Source: Pseudohongiella spirulinae
GTDB taxonomy: Bacteria; Pseudomonadota; Gammaproteobacteria; Pseudomonadales; Pseudohongiellaceae
Direction of reading: 5' to 3'
Length of the DNA stretch: 64,000 bases
Assembly (NCBI RefSeq): GCF_001444425.1
Contig: NZ_CP013189.1
Coordinates: 1,674,001-1,738,000, forward strand
The notes beneath the pieces are model-generated. The model was given only the letters and a program-made list of their open reading frames with translations. It did not search any database and was not told the DNA's origin. A program made the position numbers and the translations under genes. Positions 3,504 through 16,439 of this stretch are shown in pieces (within the stretch, counting starts at the first letter, position 1; every line of letters begins with the position of its first letter).

Positions 3504-3533
3504 TATTTCCGGTAATAAAGATTACCGGAAATA
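3504..3533. other. Left attachment site (attL) of the satellite array; perfect hairpin
   Basis: TATTTCCGGTAAT and its exact reverse complement ATTACCGGAAATA flank an AAAG loop, a 13-bp stem. Read as a recombination site it is two 11-bp arms (ATTTCCGGTAA and TTACCGGAAAT) around a 6-bp centre, the 28-bp geometry of XerC/XerD dif sites, although the sequence is not canonical. Bases 3513-3533 recur at 5955-5975 and 8397-8417. The bases left of 3513 occur only here, so they are host DNA. Joining them to the DNA right of 8417 rebuilds the presumed empty site, which would place the hairpin 5 bp beyond the stop codon of the phosphatase-like gene ending at 8423. Confidence 0.7.
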
Positions 3534-3541
3534 ACATAACT

Positions 3542-3817
3542 CTATAGATCTAAATGAGTTTTGCCGTAAATCCGGTTGAATTGGCTGATAACCTCTTCCT
3601 GAATTGCATGAAGCCTTCGAAAACCCGCTGCCCATGAGTGAATTGCGCCAGTTTCGACGAGGATCGAAGCTCCTTGGCACAAATTAATCACCAGATAGAC
3701 AAATTTACGCTCATAGCGCCGATTATTGAAACGGCCAATTTTGGTTTGATATTTCAGAGCCATACAGATCATGGAGTTCCATACCTGATCAGAGATTTCT
3801 CTATTAAGCTTAGGCAT
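3542..3817 (-). CDS. 91-residue satellite protein of unknown function (copy 1)
   Basis: Follows the replication gene by 66 bp on the same strand and ends just inside the core repeat. ATG preceded by AGGTG at a good distance. The sequence is mainly helical by eye, basic at residues 25-40 (KIGRFNNRRYERK), then hydrophobic (FVYLVINLCQGASILVE), with a soluble helical tail. It occupies the position of RstB in RS1, or of the single-stranded DNA-binding gpV in filamentous phages, but I see no similarity to either. Function unknown. Confidence 0.7.
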   Translation of the reverse strand: MPKLNREISDQVWNSMICMALKYQTKIGRFNNRRYERKFVYLVINLCQGASILVETGAIHSWAAGFRRLHAIQEEVISQFNRIYGKTHLDL

Positions 3818-3883
3818 GACGAATCACCTGGCTAATTGACGCTGAGCAGCTCCCCCCGGCAAGCCGTGTGAATCTGCGCAGCG

Positions 3884-4912
3884 TCACGCTGCGCACTCTG
3901 GATATATCAGGCGCAGATCATAGGCCCACGTTGGCGTTTGAACCGGCTGAGCCTCAAGAACCCTGATCAACGGCACAACATTGGATCGATCAACAGAATC
4001 AACCGCAAGATTGATATCGACACCGAGTTCAAGCAACTCTTTCCTATGCTTGTAGAACGTAGGTTTAGAAAGGTTTTCACGAAGGTTTTCACCACTACGC
4101 CAAAGTATATAGGTGCCTTTCAGGTGGCGTGGCAGCTCGCTCAGCTTGTCTGTTGTTAGCGCTATTTGTTCGCTCATCTCGATTCTCTTCACATAGTCAT
4201 TAAATATCTGATAAGGGGTCTTCATTCCCCATTCATCAGCTTGTAATAGATTGATTTTTTCGAGTTCTTTAGCTCTTAATGTCAGTTCGATGCGCAACTT
4301 GTTTTGTGCAAATTCGGCTATCGGCGTTTCGGAAAACCGATCTGGCAACTTGTGTGATTTAGGTCCGTTGATCTCCTCCCCTTTACTGTATGCCTTAATG
4401 GCCCACCTTCTGGAGTTCTTGCCCCAGTATAGGGTGCCGGCCTTGCTCGATGGTCTGCCATGACGAGTTTTGCTCTTGTACTCGGCTGCTCGAAGCCAAG
4501 AGCGGACATCAGCAGCACTGGGCAGTTCGTACATGTAGTTGATATCAATACGCGTCAGCCGATAGCCTCCCGCAGCGACCCGTTCGTATACTCGCCTATC
4601 TGGATTCAGTTTGAGCACATTGCAAACGTTGATAAATGCTCCAAACACAAGCATCCTCAAATCATCGATGCCAAATACGTTATGTCCTTGCAAAAATTTA
4701 GCAGGGTTACCGTGAAGCATAAGTTCAGATGCTCGCCCTTCCCCATTGCCGCCATGACTTCTGACTTGAATGCCGGATTCGTGCGATCCCTCAACTTGGA
4801 TCCGGCATGGAGATTCCCATTCAATCTCACCCGAAGGGGCAATCTTGAGCACTGAGCCGCTGTTAAGCGGTTCATGATCGAACGGAATGATGGCTGTTAC
4901 CCAGTCAATCAT
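3884..4912 (-). CDS. Phage/plasmid replication protein, II/X family (copy 1)
   Basis: 342 residues from the MIDW start usual in this family; the same frame runs 45 codons further up, but that stretch crosses the control region and looks non-coding. Family features seen: N-terminal MIDWVTAIIPF, GNPAKFLQGHNVFG near residue 65, RLTRIDINYMYELP near 115, and KAYSKGEE near 170. These match the replication initiators of filamentous phages (gpII/gpX, Phage_CRI) and the analogous RstA of CTX/RS1. Expected role: nicking the double-stranded form to start rolling-circle synthesis of single-stranded DNA. The nearest Shine-Dalgarno-like run (AGGGA) is rather far, so the exact start is less sure than the family. 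Confidence 0.85.
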   Translation of the reverse strand: MIDWVTAIIPFDHEPLNSGSVLKIAPSGEIEWESPCRIQVEGSHESGIQVRSHGGNGEGRASELMLHGNPAKFLQGHNVFGIDDLRMLVFGAFINVCNVLKLNPDRRVYERVAAGGYRLTRIDINYMYELPSAADVRSWLRAAEYKSKTRHGRPSSKAGTLYWGKNSRRWAIKAYSKGEEINGPKSHKLPDRFSETPIAEFAQNKLRIELTLRAKELEKINLLQADEWGMKTPYQIFNDYVKRIEMSEQIALTTDKLSELPRHLKGTYILWRSGENLRENLSKPTFYKHRKELLELGVDINLAVDSVDRSNVVPLIRVLEAQPVQTPTWAYDLRLIYPECAA

Positions 4913-5117
4913 ACTGCTTGGATTATCCCTGAAAGGTAAAAATATGAGACAAAAGGACAGTATTACTAACCCCTGTCCTCCCTCCCCCGCAAACCGTGTC
5001 AATACCACTACAGAGGAATTTTTAATTATTCGCAAAGGTAAAGTCAATCAATGATTACCAAACAGGGGTATATGATTCGCCCTACAGTGAAAGGCTAACC
5101 ACAAAAAGGGGGAAATT
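4913..5117. promoter_or_regulatory. Divergent control region between replication gene and repressor (copy 1)
   Basis: About 200 bp separate the two divergent genes. A good sigma-70 promoter for the replication gene reads on the minus strand: TTGACT (5047-5042), 16 bp, TTAAAA (5025-5020). It is bracketed by an exact inverted pair, ACCCCTGT at 4969-4976 and ACAGGGGT at 5062-5069. These may be operator halves for the XRE protein and could allow looping. A shorter inverted repeat, GGACAG/CTGTCC (about 4955-4978), overlaps the left one. A TATGAT at 5071-5076 may be the repressor's -10. This is pattern-based; no binding is shown. Confidence 0.5.
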
Positions 5118-5531
5118 ATGTCTTTCGGGGAGAACCTAAGAAGACTCAGAAGGGAAAAGAATCTGACACAGGCAGAGCTGGCAGATATGACAGGGATCAA
5201 ACACGGCCACATCTCAACCATGGAGACAAGTGACAGTGCTGACCCGAAACTCTCGACGGTCTACAAGCTACTAAACGCGCTGGAGTGCTCACCAAACAGT
5301 CTTTTACAGGATCAGGCCACCATTGGGCTGTCAGGGCTTATGGCTACCACCCTGGAGCGTGCCGCTTTGCTGGATGATCACAGCCAGGCTGTGCTGATTG
5401 ATGTAATAGACCACTATTGCATGGCAAAAAGCGCACAAGCCATGCTGAACACAGAGAAAGGCCGGATATTGCCGAAGATCGTCTGGTCTGCAGGTAATTT
5501 TGATCCAGTACTCAAGAAAAATACAGACTGA
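5118..5531 (+). CDS. XRE-family HTH repressor of the satellite (copy 1)
   Basis: 137 residues. Residues 5-55 are a lambda-Cro/XRE helix-turn-helix (LRRLRREKNLTQAELADMTG, then HGHISTMET). The remaining 80 residues probably serve oligomerisation. ATG with AGGGGGA just upstream. It is divergent from the replication gene, the arrangement of rstR/rstA in RS1 and CTX phage, where the repressor silences replication; the same role and superinfection immunity are inferred here. Both copies encode the same protein. Confidence 0.85.
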   Translation: MSFGENLRRLRREKNLTQAELADMTGIKHGHISTMETSDSADPKLSTVYKLLNALECSPNSLLQDQATIGLSGLMATTLERAALLDDHSQAVLIDVIDHYCMAKSAQAMLNTEKGRILPKIVWSAGNFDPVLKKNTD

Positions 5532-5954
5532 GAGGCCCCCTGTGCGGAGCCTTGACGACAAGGCAAAAAACAGCCAGTCAATCATGACGTCGTATTTGTC
5601 TCATTTTGAGAATTTGGTGCGGTATCACTAGCACCGCACCATCGGGACATCAGAAAACCGCCCTCTATGCCGGGCGGGCAAACCCCCAAGTTACTCTATA
5701 GTAACTTGGGGGTCACAGTTAAAGGCACAGCAGACCCGGCAGGTAATTTGCGAAAAACCGACTGACAGGTCTGGCAGAGGCTTTCCAGTGCAGGATTTTG
5801 AACTGGAAGAACATCAAGCGTTGCGAAGTGGCACCCGCACAAGGACTCAAACTTAAACGCTGGCCCGGGGGGATTTTTAGACCCACCTATATGGATCCGG
5901 CCTCTTTTATCATTCCAGCCCTTAAAGTAAATAATATCGGCAACCTATTGTTAA
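5532..5954. other. Non-coding region of satellite copy 1; candidate replication origin
   Basis: No convincing gene in 423 bp. It holds four hairpins: GCCTTG/CAAGGC (5549-5564), TGGTGCGGT/ACCGCACCA (5615-5641, 9-nt loop), CCGCCC/GGGCGG (5658-5677) and a perfect 14-bp stem ACCCCCAAGTTACT/AGTAACTTGGGGGT with CTAT loop (5682-5713). None is followed by a T run, so they are poor Rho-independent terminators. Filamentous phages carry their plus- and minus-strand origins as clustered hairpins in such a region. The nick site cannot be placed. A 63-codon open frame across the right junction lacks a ribosome-binding site and family features. Confidence 0.55.
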
Positions 5955-5975
5955 TAATAAAGATTACCGGAAATA
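5955..5975. repeat. Core direct repeat at the junction of the two satellite units
   Basis: Exact 21-bp match to 3513-3533 and 8397-8417: TAATAAAG, ATTACCGG, AAATA in succession. To its left is element DNA (ATTGTTAA) instead of the host arm found at attL, so the long hairpin is not formed here. This is what repeated insertion, or circle formation between units, would leave. Confidence 0.85.
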
Positions 5976-5983
5976 ACATAACT

Positions 5984-6259
5984 CTATAGATCTAAATGAG
6001 TTTTGCCGTAAATCCGGTTGAATTGGCTGATAACCTCTTCCTGAATTGCATGAAGCCTTCGAAAACCCGCTGCCCATGAGTGAATTGCGCCAGTTTCGAC
6101 GAGGATCGAAGCTCCTTGGCACAAATTAATCACCAGATAGACAAATTTACGCTCATAGCGCCGATTATTGAAACGGCCAATTTTGGTTTGATATTTCAGA
6201 GCCATACAGATCATGGAGTTCCATACCTGATCAGAGATTTCTCTATTAAGCTTAGGCAT
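5984..6259 (-). CDS. 91-residue satellite protein of unknown function (copy 2)
   Basis: Identical to the product of 3542-3817, with the same AGGTG ribosome-binding site and the same position after the replication gene. No function recognised. Confidence 0.7.
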   Translation of the reverse strand: MPKLNREISDQVWNSMICMALKYQTKIGRFNNRRYERKFVYLVINLCQGASILVETGAIHSWAAGFRRLHAIQEEVISQFNRIYGKTHLDL

Positions 6260-6325
6260 GACGAATCACCTGGCTAATTGACGCTGAGCAGCTCCCCCCG
6301 GCAAGCCGTGTGAATCTGCGCAGCG

Positions 6326-7354
6326 TCACGCTGCGCACTCTGGATATATCAGGCGCAGATCATAGGCCCACGTTGGCGTTTGAACCGGCTGAGCCTCAAG
6401 AACCCTGATCAACGGCACAACATTGGATCGATCAACAGAATCAACCGCAAGATTGATATCGACACCGAGTTCAAGCAACTCTTTCCTATGCTTGTAGAAC
6501 GTAGGTTTAGAAAGGTTTTCACGAAGGTTTTCACCACTACGCCAAAGTATATAGGTGCCTTTCAGGTGGCGTGGCAGCTCGCTCAGCTTGTCTGTTGTTA
6601 GCGCTATTTGTTCGCTCATCTCGATTCTCTTCACATAGTCATTAAATATCTGATAAGGGGTCTTCATTCCCCATTCATCAGCTTGTAATAGATTGATTTT
6701 TTCGAGTTCTTTAGCTCTTAATGTCAGTTCGATGCGCAACTTGTTTTGTGCAAATTCGGCTATCGGCGTTTCGGAAAACCGATCTGGCAACTTGTGTGAT
6801 TTAGGTCCGTTGATCTCCTCCCCTTTACTGTATGCCTTAATGGCCCACCTTCTGGAGTTCTTGCCCCAGTATAGGGTGCCGGCCTTGCTCGATGGTCTGC
6901 CATGACGAGTTTTGCTCTTGTACTCGGCTGCTCGAAGCCAAGAGCGGACATCAGCAGCACTGGGCAGTTCGTACATGTAGTTGATATCAATACGCGTCAG
7001 CCGATAGCCTCCCGCAGCGACCCGTTCGTATACTCGCCTATCTGGATTCAGTTTGAGCACATTGCAAACGTTGATAAATGCTCCAAACACAAGCATCCTC
7101 AAATCATCGATGCCAAATACGTTATGTCCTTGCAAAAATTTAGCAGGGTTACCGTGAAGCATAAGTTCAGATGCTCGCCCTTCCCCATTGCCGCCATGAC
7201 TTCTGACTTGAATGCCGGATTCGTGCGATCCCTCAACTTGGATCCGGCATGGAGATTCCCATTCAATCTCACCCGAAGGGGCAATCTTGAGCACTGAGCC
7301 GCTGTTAAGCGGTTCATGATCGAACGGAATGATGGCTGTTACCCAGTCAATCAT
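6326..7354 (-). CDS. Phage/plasmid replication protein, II/X family (copy 2)
   Basis: Identical to the 342-residue product of 3884-4912, taken from the same MIDW start. Because the unit is intact, both copies can be expected to supply initiator; whether both origins are used is unknown. Confidence 0.85.
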   Translation of the reverse strand: MIDWVTAIIPFDHEPLNSGSVLKIAPSGEIEWESPCRIQVEGSHESGIQVRSHGGNGEGRASELMLHGNPAKFLQGHNVFGIDDLRMLVFGAFINVCNVLKLNPDRRVYERVAAGGYRLTRIDINYMYELPSAADVRSWLRAAEYKSKTRHGRPSSKAGTLYWGKNSRRWAIKAYSKGEEINGPKSHKLPDRFSETPIAEFAQNKLRIELTLRAKELEKINLLQADEWGMKTPYQIFNDYVKRIEMSEQIALTTDKLSELPRHLKGTYILWRSGENLRENLSKPTFYKHRKELLELGVDINLAVDSVDRSNVVPLIRVLEAQPVQTPTWAYDLRLIYPECAA

Positions 7355-7559
7355 ACTGCTTGGATTATCCCTGAAAGGTAAAAATATGAGACAAAAGGAC
7401 AGTATTACTAACCCCTGTCCTCCCTCCCCCGCAAACCGTGTCAATACCACTACAGAGGAATTTTTAATTATTCGCAAAGGTAAAGTCAATCAATGATTAC
7501 CAAACAGGGGTATATGATTCGCCCTACAGTGAAAGGCTAACCACAAAAAGGGGGAAATT
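7355..7559. promoter_or_regulatory. Divergent control region between replication gene and repressor (copy 2)
   Basis: Same sequence as 4913-5117: minus-strand promoter TTGACT (7489-7484), 16 bp, TTAAAA (7467-7462), and the inverted pair ACCCCTGT (7411-7418) and ACAGGGGT (7504-7511). Confidence 0.5.
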
Positions 7560-7973
7560 ATGTCTTTCGGGGAGAACCTAAGAAGACTCAGAAGGGAAAA
7601 GAATCTGACACAGGCAGAGCTGGCAGATATGACAGGGATCAAACACGGCCACATCTCAACCATGGAGACAAGTGACAGTGCTGACCCGAAACTCTCGACG
7701 GTCTACAAGCTACTAAACGCGCTGGAGTGCTCACCAAACAGTCTTTTACAGGATCAGGCCACCATTGGGCTGTCAGGGCTTATGGCTACCACCCTGGAGC
7801 GTGCCGCTTTGCTGGATGATCACAGCCAGGCTGTGCTGATTGATGTAATAGACCACTATTGCATGGCAAAAAGCGCACAAGCCATGCTGAACACAGAGAA
7901 AGGCCGGATATTGCCGAAGATCGTCTGGTCTGCAGGTAATTTTGATCCAGTACTCAAGAAAAATACAGACTGA
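7560..7973 (+). CDS. XRE-family HTH repressor of the satellite (copy 2)
   Basis: Identical to the 137-residue product of 5118-5531, with the same ribosome-binding site. Two identical repressor genes would double the dose of the putative immunity function. Confidence 0.85.
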   Translation: MSFGENLRRLRREKNLTQAELADMTGIKHGHISTMETSDSADPKLSTVYKLLNALECSPNSLLQDQATIGLSGLMATTLERAALLDDHSQAVLIDVIDHYCMAKSAQAMLNTEKGRILPKIVWSAGNFDPVLKKNTD

Positions 7974-8396
7974 GAGGCCCCCTGTGCGGAGCCTTGACGA
8001 CAAGGCAAAAAACAGCCAGTCAATCATGACGTCGTATTTGTCTCATTTTGAGAATTTGGTGCGGTATCACTAGCACCGCACCATCGGGACATCAGAAAAC
8101 CGCCCTCTATGCCGGGCGGGCAAACCCCCAAGTTACTCTATAGTAACTTGGGGGTCACAGTTAAAGGCACAGCAGACCCGGCAGGTAATTTGCGAAAAAC
8201 CGACTGACAGGTCTGGCAGAGGCTTTCCAGTGCAGGATTTTGAACTGGAAGAACATCAAGCGTTGCGAAGTGGCACCCGCACAAGGACTCAAACTTAAAC
8301 GCTGGCCCGGGGGGATTTTTAGACCCACCTATATGGATCCGGCCTCTTTTATCATTCCAGCCCTTAAAGTAAATAATATCGGCAACCTATTGTTAA
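7974..8396. other. Non-coding region of satellite copy 2; candidate replication origin
   Basis: Same sequence and hairpins as 5532-5954 shifted by 2442 bp: the 9-bp stem at 8057-8083 and the 14-bp stem with CTAT loop at 8124-8155. No gene seen. Confidence 0.55.
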
Positions 8397-8417
8397 TAAT
8401 AAAGATTACCGGAAATA
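8397..8417. repeat. Right core repeat (attR) of the satellite array
   Basis: Third exact copy of the 21-bp core. Element DNA lies to its left. To its right the sequence changes from ACATAACT (copies 1 and 2) to GTAGATCA, which is host DNA. The host stop codon at 8423-8425 follows 5 bp later, so insertion happened just past the 3' end of that gene and left its reading frame intact. Confidence 0.8.
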
Positions 8418-15224: not shown

Positions 15225-16439
15225 GTGAAAAATTATTCCAAGAAAGCGCCGGCTGCGTTGTTTGACACCCTGGAAAACCTGCCCAACCCTTTTCGCACGC
15301 CCGCGCGGCTTCCCTTCGCCCTATCGGAAAGATCACCGTCTGGTGCCGATAAAGACTACCAATTCGCCTGTGAATTTCTTTACAGCTACCGAGGAAGCCC
15401 CGATACATTCGCGTCCTATAGACGCGAGCTGGAGCACTTTCTGCAATGGCTTTGGCTGGTAGCCGAAAAAAATCTGCCCAAGGTTGAGCGTGACGACATT
15501 GAAGCCTATGCCGAATTCGCCAGACAGCCTCCTCAAAACTGGATAGGTTCTCGTCAGGTGCCGCGATTTATCGAGCAGGACGGTGAACGCCAATGCAATC
15601 CCGACTGGCGTCCTTATCTCGCCCCGGCCGGCAAGGAATACAGTCTTTCCCAATCAGCATTACAGGCCCTGTTTGCGGTACTGGGTAGTTTTTTCAATTA
15701 CCTGGTGCAGGAAAATTTTGTATCGGCCAACCCCATTGCACGCCTGCGACAGAAAGGCAAATTTTTGCGCAAACGCCAGGCTCAGAACAAAATCCGTCGG
15801 CTTTCTCCTTTGCAATGGGATGTTGTCATTGAAACAGCCGAGGAAATGGCGGAGGAAGACCCGGTCACGCACGAACGCACCCTCTTCATCATGTGCGCGC
15901 TTTATGGCATGTACCTGCGCATCTCGGAACTGACGGAAACAGAGCGCTGGATTCCGCAAATGGGACATTTTCAGCGCGACCTTGAAGGAAACTGGTGGTT
16001 TCTCACCGTTGGCAAAGGCAACAAAGAGCGAGAAATTTCGGTCAGCGATGACATGCTGAATGCTCTGCGCCGTTATCGGCAGTCCCGGCAGATGACGCCT
16101 TTACCGTCACCCGGCGAGTCAGCACCGCTGATTCACAAGACTCGCGGCAAAGGCGGCATCACCAGTACGCGGCAAATTCGGGGCATTGTGCAAAAATGTT
16201 TTGATCGGGCTGAAGCAAAGTTGCGCCAGGAAGGGTCTATAGATGAGGCGCAACGGCTGTCTGAAGCGACGGTACACTGGCTTCGACATACGGGCATTTC
16301 GGAAGATGTGAAATATCGCCCCCGGGAACACGTGCGTGATGACGCCGGCCATGGTTCAAGTGCCATCACCGACCGCTATATTGATGTTGAGCGAACCGAA
16401 CGGCATGCGAGCGCCCGCAACAAGCGCGTAAAGCCCTGA
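15225..16439 (+). CDS. Tyrosine recombinase / phage-type integrase, stand-alone
   Basis: 404 residues from a GTG in an AT-rich leader with no good ribosome-binding site, so the start is uncertain. The N-terminal half is a SAM-like core-binding domain (SYRRELEHFLQWLW). The catalytic set is complete: Arg in LRISELTE, Lys in GKGNKERE, HWLRH, His in DDAGHGS and Tyr in ITDRYIDV. It lies between mscS and prc, with no phage genes or visible attachment site beside it. Its length exceeds XerC/XerD (about 300) by an extended N-terminus. Substrate unknown; a link to the satellite 7 kb away is only a possibility. Confidence 0.85.
   Translation: MKNYSKKAPAALFDTLENLPNPFRTPARLPFALSERSPSGADKDYQFACEFLYSYRGSPDTFASYRRELEHFLQWLWLVAEKNLPKVERDDIEAYAEFARQPPQNWIGSRQVPRFIEQDGERQCNPDWRPYLAPAGKEYSLSQSALQALFAVLGSFFNYLVQENFVSANPIARLRQKGKFLRKRQAQNKIRRLSPLQWDVVIETAEEMAEEDPVTHERTLFIMCALYGMYLRISELTETERWIPQMGHFQRDLEGNWWFLTVGKGNKEREISVSDDMLNALRRYRQSRQMTPLPSPGESAPLIHKTRGKGGITSTRQIRGIVQKCFDRAEAKLRQEGSIDEAQRLSEATVHWLRHTGISEDVKYRPREHVRDDAGHGSSAITDRYIDVERTERHASARNKRVKP

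Follow-up and report, generated by a model that had tools for sequence, protein, structure and literature searches.

A probable filamentous-phage satellite in tandem at a dif-like site in Pseudohongiella spirulinae, with a likely XerL-like recombinase encoded nearby

Organization of the locus

In this study, we analysed a 64,000-nucleotide stretch of the Pseudohongiella spirulinae genome (contig NZ_CP013189.1, positions 1,674,001 to 1,738,000; hereafter the window, in whose coordinates all positions of the array are given). Near its left end lie two head-to-tail units, identical across 2442/2442 bases, each with a replication protein (Rep) of the inovirus II/X family, a 91-residue protein (p91) and a divergent XRE protein. 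None of these three genes encodes an integrase or a structural protein. The repeat extends 21 bases past the second unit, giving three copies of a 21-bp core (3513-3533, 5955-5975 and 8397-8417). An original prediction, made from the sequence alone, had described this layout, and it is borne out: the units are 100% identical, the three genes are recovered as open reading frames (ORFs) with PF05144 and TIGR01629 matches for Rep, and family searches recognise nothing structural. The core is now seen to lie within a 28-bp site. Beyond the original prediction, this site looks like the chromosomal dif, and the likely recombinase is encoded in the same window. We consider it likely that the unit is a 2.44-kb filamentous-phage satellite that integrates at the host dif via a host-encoded, probably single, Xer recombinase. 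The features are listed below.

3513..5954, minus strand (Rep sense): satellite unit 1, 2442 bp
5955..8396, minus strand (Rep sense): satellite unit 2, 2442 bp, identical to unit 1
3884..4912 (unit 1) and 6326..7354 (unit 2), minus strand: Rep, inovirus II/X family (Phage_CRI and G2P_X_C), 342 aa from ATG
3542..3817 (unit 1) and 5984..6259 (unit 2), minus strand: p91, 91-aa protein adjacent to the attachment (att) site
5118..5531 (unit 1) and 7560..7973 (unit 2), plus strand: RstR-like XRE repressor, 137 aa
5532..5954 (unit 1) and 7974..8396 (unit 2), strand not assigned: hairpin-rich non-coding region, about 420 bp
4954..4979 (unit 1) and 7396..7421 (unit 2), minus strand: hairpin upstream of rep, kept in the related elements L005 and L006; candidate origin or control site
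5615..5641 (unit 1) and 8057..8083 (unit 2), minus strand: hairpin common to the inovirus of genome G107; candidate origin or packaging site
3505..3532, no strand: left edge of the array, an intact dif-like site; 28-bp palindrome with 11-bp arms and 6-bp centre
5947..5974, no strand: unit-unit junction of phage attachment site (attP) type, in which one arm of dif and its centre are retained and the second arm is changed
8389..8416, no strand: the same altered dif as at 5947..5974, here at the right end of the array
15225..16439, plus strand: 404-aa XerL-like tyrosine recombinase, host gene, candidate dif enzyme

The assembly is one contig of 3,345,119 bases (3.35 Mb), in which the unit has a full-length match at the array locus only; two extra short matches are its own hairpin. 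The assembly shows a tandem, and complete identity of the copies is also what an assembly artefact of a single integrated unit or an episome would give. Against such an artefact, which we regard as very unlikely, stand the one-contig assembly with unique flanks on both sides and the similar core-to-core or core-to-start junctions seen in element L005 and congener G005 (see below), though these draft contigs share the same doubt.

Replication protein, repressor and p91

Rep is matched by PF05144 (Phage_CRI; E 4.5e-68, 230 bits), PF05155 (E 1.1e-19) and TIGR01629 (247 bits; cut-off 29), and scores 15 bits against PF02486, under that model's cut-off of 29.6. The closest named phage is I2-2 (Lineavirus), with 50.5% identity across 97% of the query. 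At E 1e-5 Rep was matched by 16 of 50,697 phage records, and relatives are encoded at 67 IMG/VR loci, mostly on contigs of inovirus size. The inovirus relatives that the original prediction had proposed to search for are therefore present, and plasmid initiators are not the only matches. The plasmid side of the search gave one record, a weak DNA match, and with 67 viral loci set against it a plasmid-only origin of Rep was rejected.

For the 137-aa repressor the top NCBIfam match is the RstR family NF041951 (residues 1-106, 53.5 bits; cut-off 80). The same family is the top match for the repressors of three other satellites (73.1, 65.4 and 42.6 bits). Judged by these profile scores, the repressor appears RstR-like in four of the four satellites scanned, each under the NCBI cut-off of 80 bits.

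For p91, searches of PHROGs, NCBIfam and PADLOC were empty, and Pfam yielded no hit that reached its cut-off. A homologue with 60% identity adjoins the same core on contig C229 of the congener G005, and the pair shows a non-synonymous rate (dN) of 0.31 and a synonymous rate (dS) of 1.77 (dN/dS 0.18). Therefore, p91 is taken to be a real gene. In the window, in C229 and on the G005 inovirus contig C56, p91 or its homologue is the final gene ahead of att; more distant kin were detected in L005 (profile E 4e-6, in a two-sequence search) and in G107 (44% identical to that of L005). From this position p91 may act in recombination at att, in the manner of XafT, the Xer activator that the satellite TLC-phi encodes.

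The insertion site resembles the host dif

The copy of the 28-bp site at 3505-3532 is a perfect palindrome with 11-bp arms and an asymmetric 6-bp centre, and the copies at 5947-5974 and 8389-8416 retain one arm and the centre. Joining the outer flanks of the array gives an intact palindrome, which therefore represents the empty site. The intact palindrome occurs once in this genome. Allowing up to 3 mismatches, it is present in 33 of 35 family genomes (the two others are 72% and 91% complete) and in none of the 21 genomes that represent 21 other families of the order. When the exact 18-base core was looked for in a wider set, 92 of 137 family genomes had it; many genomes of this set are incomplete, and variants escape an exact match.

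The array lies 50.1% along the contig. GC skew and octamer counts were sampled in 20 stretches of 20 kb plus the window. The skew is positive in 13 of 13 stretches left of the array, and negative in the window (even in its 3.5 kb left of the array) and in 7 of 7 stretches to the right. The octamers GGGNAGGG, which we take to be like KOPS (FtsK-orienting polar sequences), flip as well, with a ratio of 18:4 on the left side of the array and of 4:21 on the right side (Fisher p 7e-6). Because of the skew flip, the KOPS flip, the mid-contig place and the single copy in nearly every family genome, the palindrome has the marks of a dif site, and the site used by the satellite looks like the dif of its host. 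The unit has features of integrative mobile elements exploiting Xer (IMEX): it mimics dif, it is without its own integrase and it is inserted at a dif-like site. Since both arms are alike, elements could use either half, and the window type and the G107 type carry the centre in opposite senses.

The host Xer system and the 404-aa recombinase

A search for the canonical gammaproteobacterial dif (24 bases, tolerating 3 mismatches at most) came up empty in all 35 family genomes and succeeded in 14 of the 21 genomes of other families. The XerD model TIGR02225, which picks up XerC too, scores at most 132 bits in 35/35 family genomes and at least 290 in all 14 genomes with a canonical dif. In this genome, a PF00589 search returned two tyrosine recombinases, an integron integrase (G000:C1:192856-193455; L052 1444-2433, minus strand; TIGR02249 390.8 bits, cut-off 265) and the 404-aa protein. 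The gene of the latter sits 6.8 kb right of the array; the XerC family gives its top NCBIfam score, 69.5 bits against a cut-off of 335.

Relatives of the 404-aa protein are present in all 35 family genomes, with 63-100% identity where one full-length match was found; the gene is in pieces in G004 and has internal stops in G032. The five catalytic residues (R, H, R, H and Y) are conserved throughout the alignment of 36 rows, in which the window's own protein stands twice, and the nucleophile is Tyr385; an earlier, narrow motif pattern had matched 21 of 30 recombinases. Palindrome and recombinase gene share a contig in 27 of 33 family genomes. The gap between them is below 200 bp in 9 of these, below 1.3 kb in 17 and above 3 kb in 10, with a maximum of 35.5 kb, where the gaps of this genome and of G023 include inserted elements and the G004 gene is partial.

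Outside the family, relatives with 38-55% identity were found in 6 of the 7 genomes without a canonical dif, whereas the 14 genomes with one gave a single match at 28% and none in the other 13 (Fisher p 1.3e-4, counting hits of at least 38%). The seventh genome, G036, may merely miss its dif, since it is 75% complete and has an XerD-model match of 296 bits. In G049, one of the six, XerD-model matches reach 257 bits, under the cut-off. Palindromic dif candidates near the recombinase gene of the six genomes gave no clear common site.

It could be argued that the palindrome is a terminator or another repeat used as a target and that the 404-aa protein is an unrelated integrase. Intergenic palindromes are common, and the distances above 3 kb in 10 of the 27 same-contig cases would fit this idea. 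We nevertheless find it highly improbable, since the palindrome is a single copy in nearly all family genomes and lies at the skew and KOPS flip, a canonical dif and a high-scoring XerD are lost in the same genomes, and elements with different Reps use the site.

Taken together, the sequence comparisons suggest that the host dif system relies on one recombinase and is XerL/dif-like, as in the Legionellales. Plasmid-borne recombinases of two Legionella species share 51-54% identity with the 404-aa protein, and it is from these that the kinship is read; the system is therefore called XerL-like here, not XerL. The 404-aa protein is also about 38% identical to several recombinases from large Pseudomonas plasmids. 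Relatives are encoded by 1674 of 72,556 plasmid records, by name mostly from Klebsiella (578), Burkholderia (252) and Pseudomonas (193). Perhaps they mark a plasmid family that was the source of the chromosomal system.

Related satellites in other genera

Two coat-less relatives were found in other genera. L006 (taken as contig C25 of genome G018) is a complete element of 3.0 kb, bounded on a single contig by two copies of the core; it encodes a Rep of 66% identity, a repressor and a 200-aa protein. L005 (contig C102 of G019) is a 2.96-kb core-to-core element with a Rep of 67% identity, a repressor and other small genes. Coat genes in the elements of relatives would have spoken against the satellite idea; there is no P-loop ORF in either locus by a heuristic scan, and no Zot match in either genome. 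In a tree of 39 Reps, which used 32 of the 67 IMG/VR loci, the Reps of the window, L005 and L006 form one clade (support 100/99). On another contig of G019 the same left flank (97% identity) is joined to an intact palindrome, which looks like the empty site in a co-assembled strain.

The 200-aa protein, which has long hydrophobic stretches, occupies the interval between att and repressor in both relatives (L005 1450-2052 and L006 2473-3075, both minus strand) and is absent from the window unit. PADLOC gave nothing for it in either element, nor for the 113-aa protein of L005, a 117-aa protein of the C229 element or p91. Pfam gave nothing above cut-off for three of the satellite cargo genes.

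Because of the coat-less relatives, the shared Rep clade and the empty-site contig, we read the window unit as part of an old satellite lineage and not as a recent wreck. The rival explanation is a decayed inovirus prophage, which lost its structural genes in this strain, was duplicated by chance and has no satellite life. Its Rep is indeed of the kind found in full inoviruses, and the Zot search found no helper in this genome. However, the units are intact and identical, p91 is under purifying selection, and two more coat-less elements with Reps of the same clade use the same core in other genera, so that we judge decay improbable. Of the original prediction, which is borne out in part, the coat-less inovirus relative outside Vibrio in tandem at a specific site is supported.

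Inoviruses of the family and candidate helpers

The original prediction had also assumed an unseen helper inovirus. None was found in this genome by Zot matches, the only marker sought, but full inoviruses are present elsewhere in the family, with Zot matches in 3 of 137 genomes: the congener G005, G023 and G107. The contig order in G005 and G107 is inferred.

In G005, contig C56 carries an inovirus of which Rep, a single-strand-binding protein, a pVI-like minor protein and pI are recognised by family match; a repressor, a pVIII-like and a pIII-like protein are called from gene order and features only, and the pIII candidate has no PHROG match. The gene order ends with a p91 homologue (40% identity), followed by the core and an intact dif arm. 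The original prediction had proposed to search inovirus collections for p91, which was not found in IMG/VR or in named phages.

In the same genome, contig C229 holds a coat-less element at the core, with a Rep, an RstR-like repressor, the 117-aa protein and the 60% p91 homologue. Its first part lies on contig C330, which overlaps C229 by 130 identical bases and has the core, the chromosome flank and the recombinase gene. As the Rep of C229 is just 22% identical to that of the window, this element is a second satellite type. C229 and C56 have 248 bp in common at 91.5% (about 70 bp at the start of a small ORF and about 180 bp intergenic), while their Reps are 31% identical. Sharing of this kind despite divergent Reps fits a satellite that borrows the cis signals of its helper. 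The small ORF at the start of the G005 satellite and the G005 inovirus (L134 62-238 and L112 2-151) has 58 aa in C330 and is cut by the contig end in C56; the two sequences are close.

The inovirus of G023, 5.3 kb long and flanked by a core on each side, encodes Zot and an unrelated Rep of the rolling-circle kind. The G107 inovirus, assembled from two contigs by inference, has a Rep of 47% identity and begins at a dif half site with the centre in the opposite sense, which the symmetry of the arms would permit. Between its Zot gene and its intact dif sits a reverse transcriptase gene (G107:C105; L133 2872-4129; top PADLOC model RT_VI, 305 bits), preceded by that of a small helix-turn-helix protein; judging from the sequence, this is perhaps a retron carried as phage cargo.

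Hairpins as candidate cis signals

The non-coding region was originally described as hairpin-rich, and this holds: folded together with the core as single-stranded DNA, the approximately 420 bp are more stable than shuffled sequences (z -4.1; 0 of 100 as good). The hairpin upstream of rep is nearly letter-identical in three satellites (window, L005 and L006), and this conserved block was not seen in I2-2, in L007 and L008 or in the rep leader of the G107 phage. The hairpin of the non-coding region has a counterpart in the G107 phage; of its nine outer pairs, three differ by double compensatory changes (counted by eye), and the same TCTCAAAATGAGAC block follows the hairpin in the unit and in the phage. 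The loop motif, for which 0.04-0.10 occurrences per strand and element are expected by chance, was not found in C56 or G023. Both hairpins are taken as candidate origin or packaging sites.

These signals bear on another alternative, namely that the unit is a plasmid-like rolling-circle mini-replicon that integrates through dif and is never packaged. NCBIfam names the family of Rep a phage/plasmid replication protein, and packaging of the window unit is only inferred. Still, the single weak plasmid match among Rep relatives, the hairpin and downstream block common to the G107 inovirus, and the 248 bp that another satellite has in common with a co-resident inovirus all point to phage biology, and we consider a mini-replicon unlikely.

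Proposed life cycle and significance

The window element is best read as a satellite of the TLC/RS1 type. How it is packaged and recombined we infer from known inovirus and IMEX biology, as set out in parts of two sources (PMC4246890, PMC5357621). Rep would nick a hairpin origin and drive rolling-circle synthesis across the tandem units, giving single-stranded circles. These would be converted to double strands and could then undergo dif x attP exchange via the host 404-aa XerL-like enzyme. Virions would be supplied by a co-infecting inovirus of the G005, G023 or G107 type, and the RstR-like repressor would keep rep quiet. Some observations weigh against this satellite reading: there is no match to Zot, the sole helper marker sought, in this genome; no p91 was detected in L006 or G023; p91 is not specific to satellites, given the homologue in the G005 inovirus; and the 205-bp leader between the XRE and Rep genes folds no better than shuffles (z +0.25). 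As the genome lacks a Zot match, the satellite would here be stranded or waiting.

It is tempting to speculate further, though the chances are somewhat less than even, that a one-enzyme XerL-like system has replaced XerCD/dif in this family, with a palindromic dif, and in six others of the order (one genome each). In this scenario full inoviruses and an old Rep-only satellite lineage would form a guild on dif, and the p91 family would be a viral activator or direction factor, a counterpart of the FtsK-independent Xer activators.

In the relevant part of their paper, Carnoy and Roten found gammaproteobacteria with large genomes and no dif/Xer, including Saccharophagus, Colwellia and Legionellales, left dimer resolution open and asked whether a substitute for dif/Xer exists (PMC2731167). 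XerL settled the question of dimer resolution for the Legionellales. The att site of the satellite brings to light a possible solution for another family and draws attention to six more in the order; the candidate enzyme and its 28-bp site are directly testable. Filamentous-phage satellites gain a lineage that spans three genera. The congener G005 offers a natural pair of inovirus and satellite outside Vibrio, useful for work on hijacking and packaging signals.

Comparison with known systems

With the Inoviridae the unit shares the II/X replication protein, whereas coat, pIII and pI/Zot genes were not found in it; I2-2, in contrast, is a complete phage of 6744 bases with coat genes.

The original prediction drew a parallel to RS1, the satellite of CTX-phi, and this stands in part. 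Like RS1, the unit is small, has no coat genes, is repeated in tandem at dif and carries a divergent repressor that resembles RstR, here scoring under the family cut-off. However, RS1 has a Rep of the RstA type, and RstA belongs to Rep_trans (PF02486), whereas the window Rep is of the II/X family. Searches of Pfam, PHROGs and NCBIfam named nothing RstB- or RstC-like, p91 being the sole other gene. Membership in RS1 was therefore rejected as a label.

The nearest model is a TLC-type satellite, because Rep is of the II/X (Phage_CRI) family, to which the TLC replication protein Cri also belongs. TLC is about 4.7 kb long, and the window unit, at 2.44 kb, is smaller. Like the TLC satellite, the unit has no morphogenesis genes and sits at a dif-like site. 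The likeness extends to the attachment site, as the attP of TLC-phi of Vibrio cholerae is described as one dif arm plus the centre, with the other arm degenerate (PMC4246890), an arrangement like that in the window. TLC-phi uses XerC and XerD at a canonical dif, whereas the host here has neither a canonical dif nor a high-scoring XerD.

On the host side, the closest counterpart is XerL/dif of the Legionellales, in which, according to the sections of the paper that describe it, one recombinase acts at a dif whose arms are uninterrupted inverted repeats near the terminus (PMC9765430). That system came to light through the LME-1 element, whose partial dif leaves, as the window unit does, an intact and an altered copy of the site, and the XerL homologue search of Nicholson and colleagues, as given there, was confined to the Legionellales (PMC9765430). 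The window differs in its host group; its dif arms are 11 bp long. Its recombinase has Tyr385 where the catalytic tyrosine of XerL is given as Tyr387. The distance between dif and recombinase gene is often short in this family, compared with more than 400 kb stated for Legionella pneumophila (PMC9765430). Features of XerL/dif are nevertheless found in the host of the satellite: a single-copy palindromic site at the terminus, in a genome where neither a canonical dif nor a high-scoring XerD is present.

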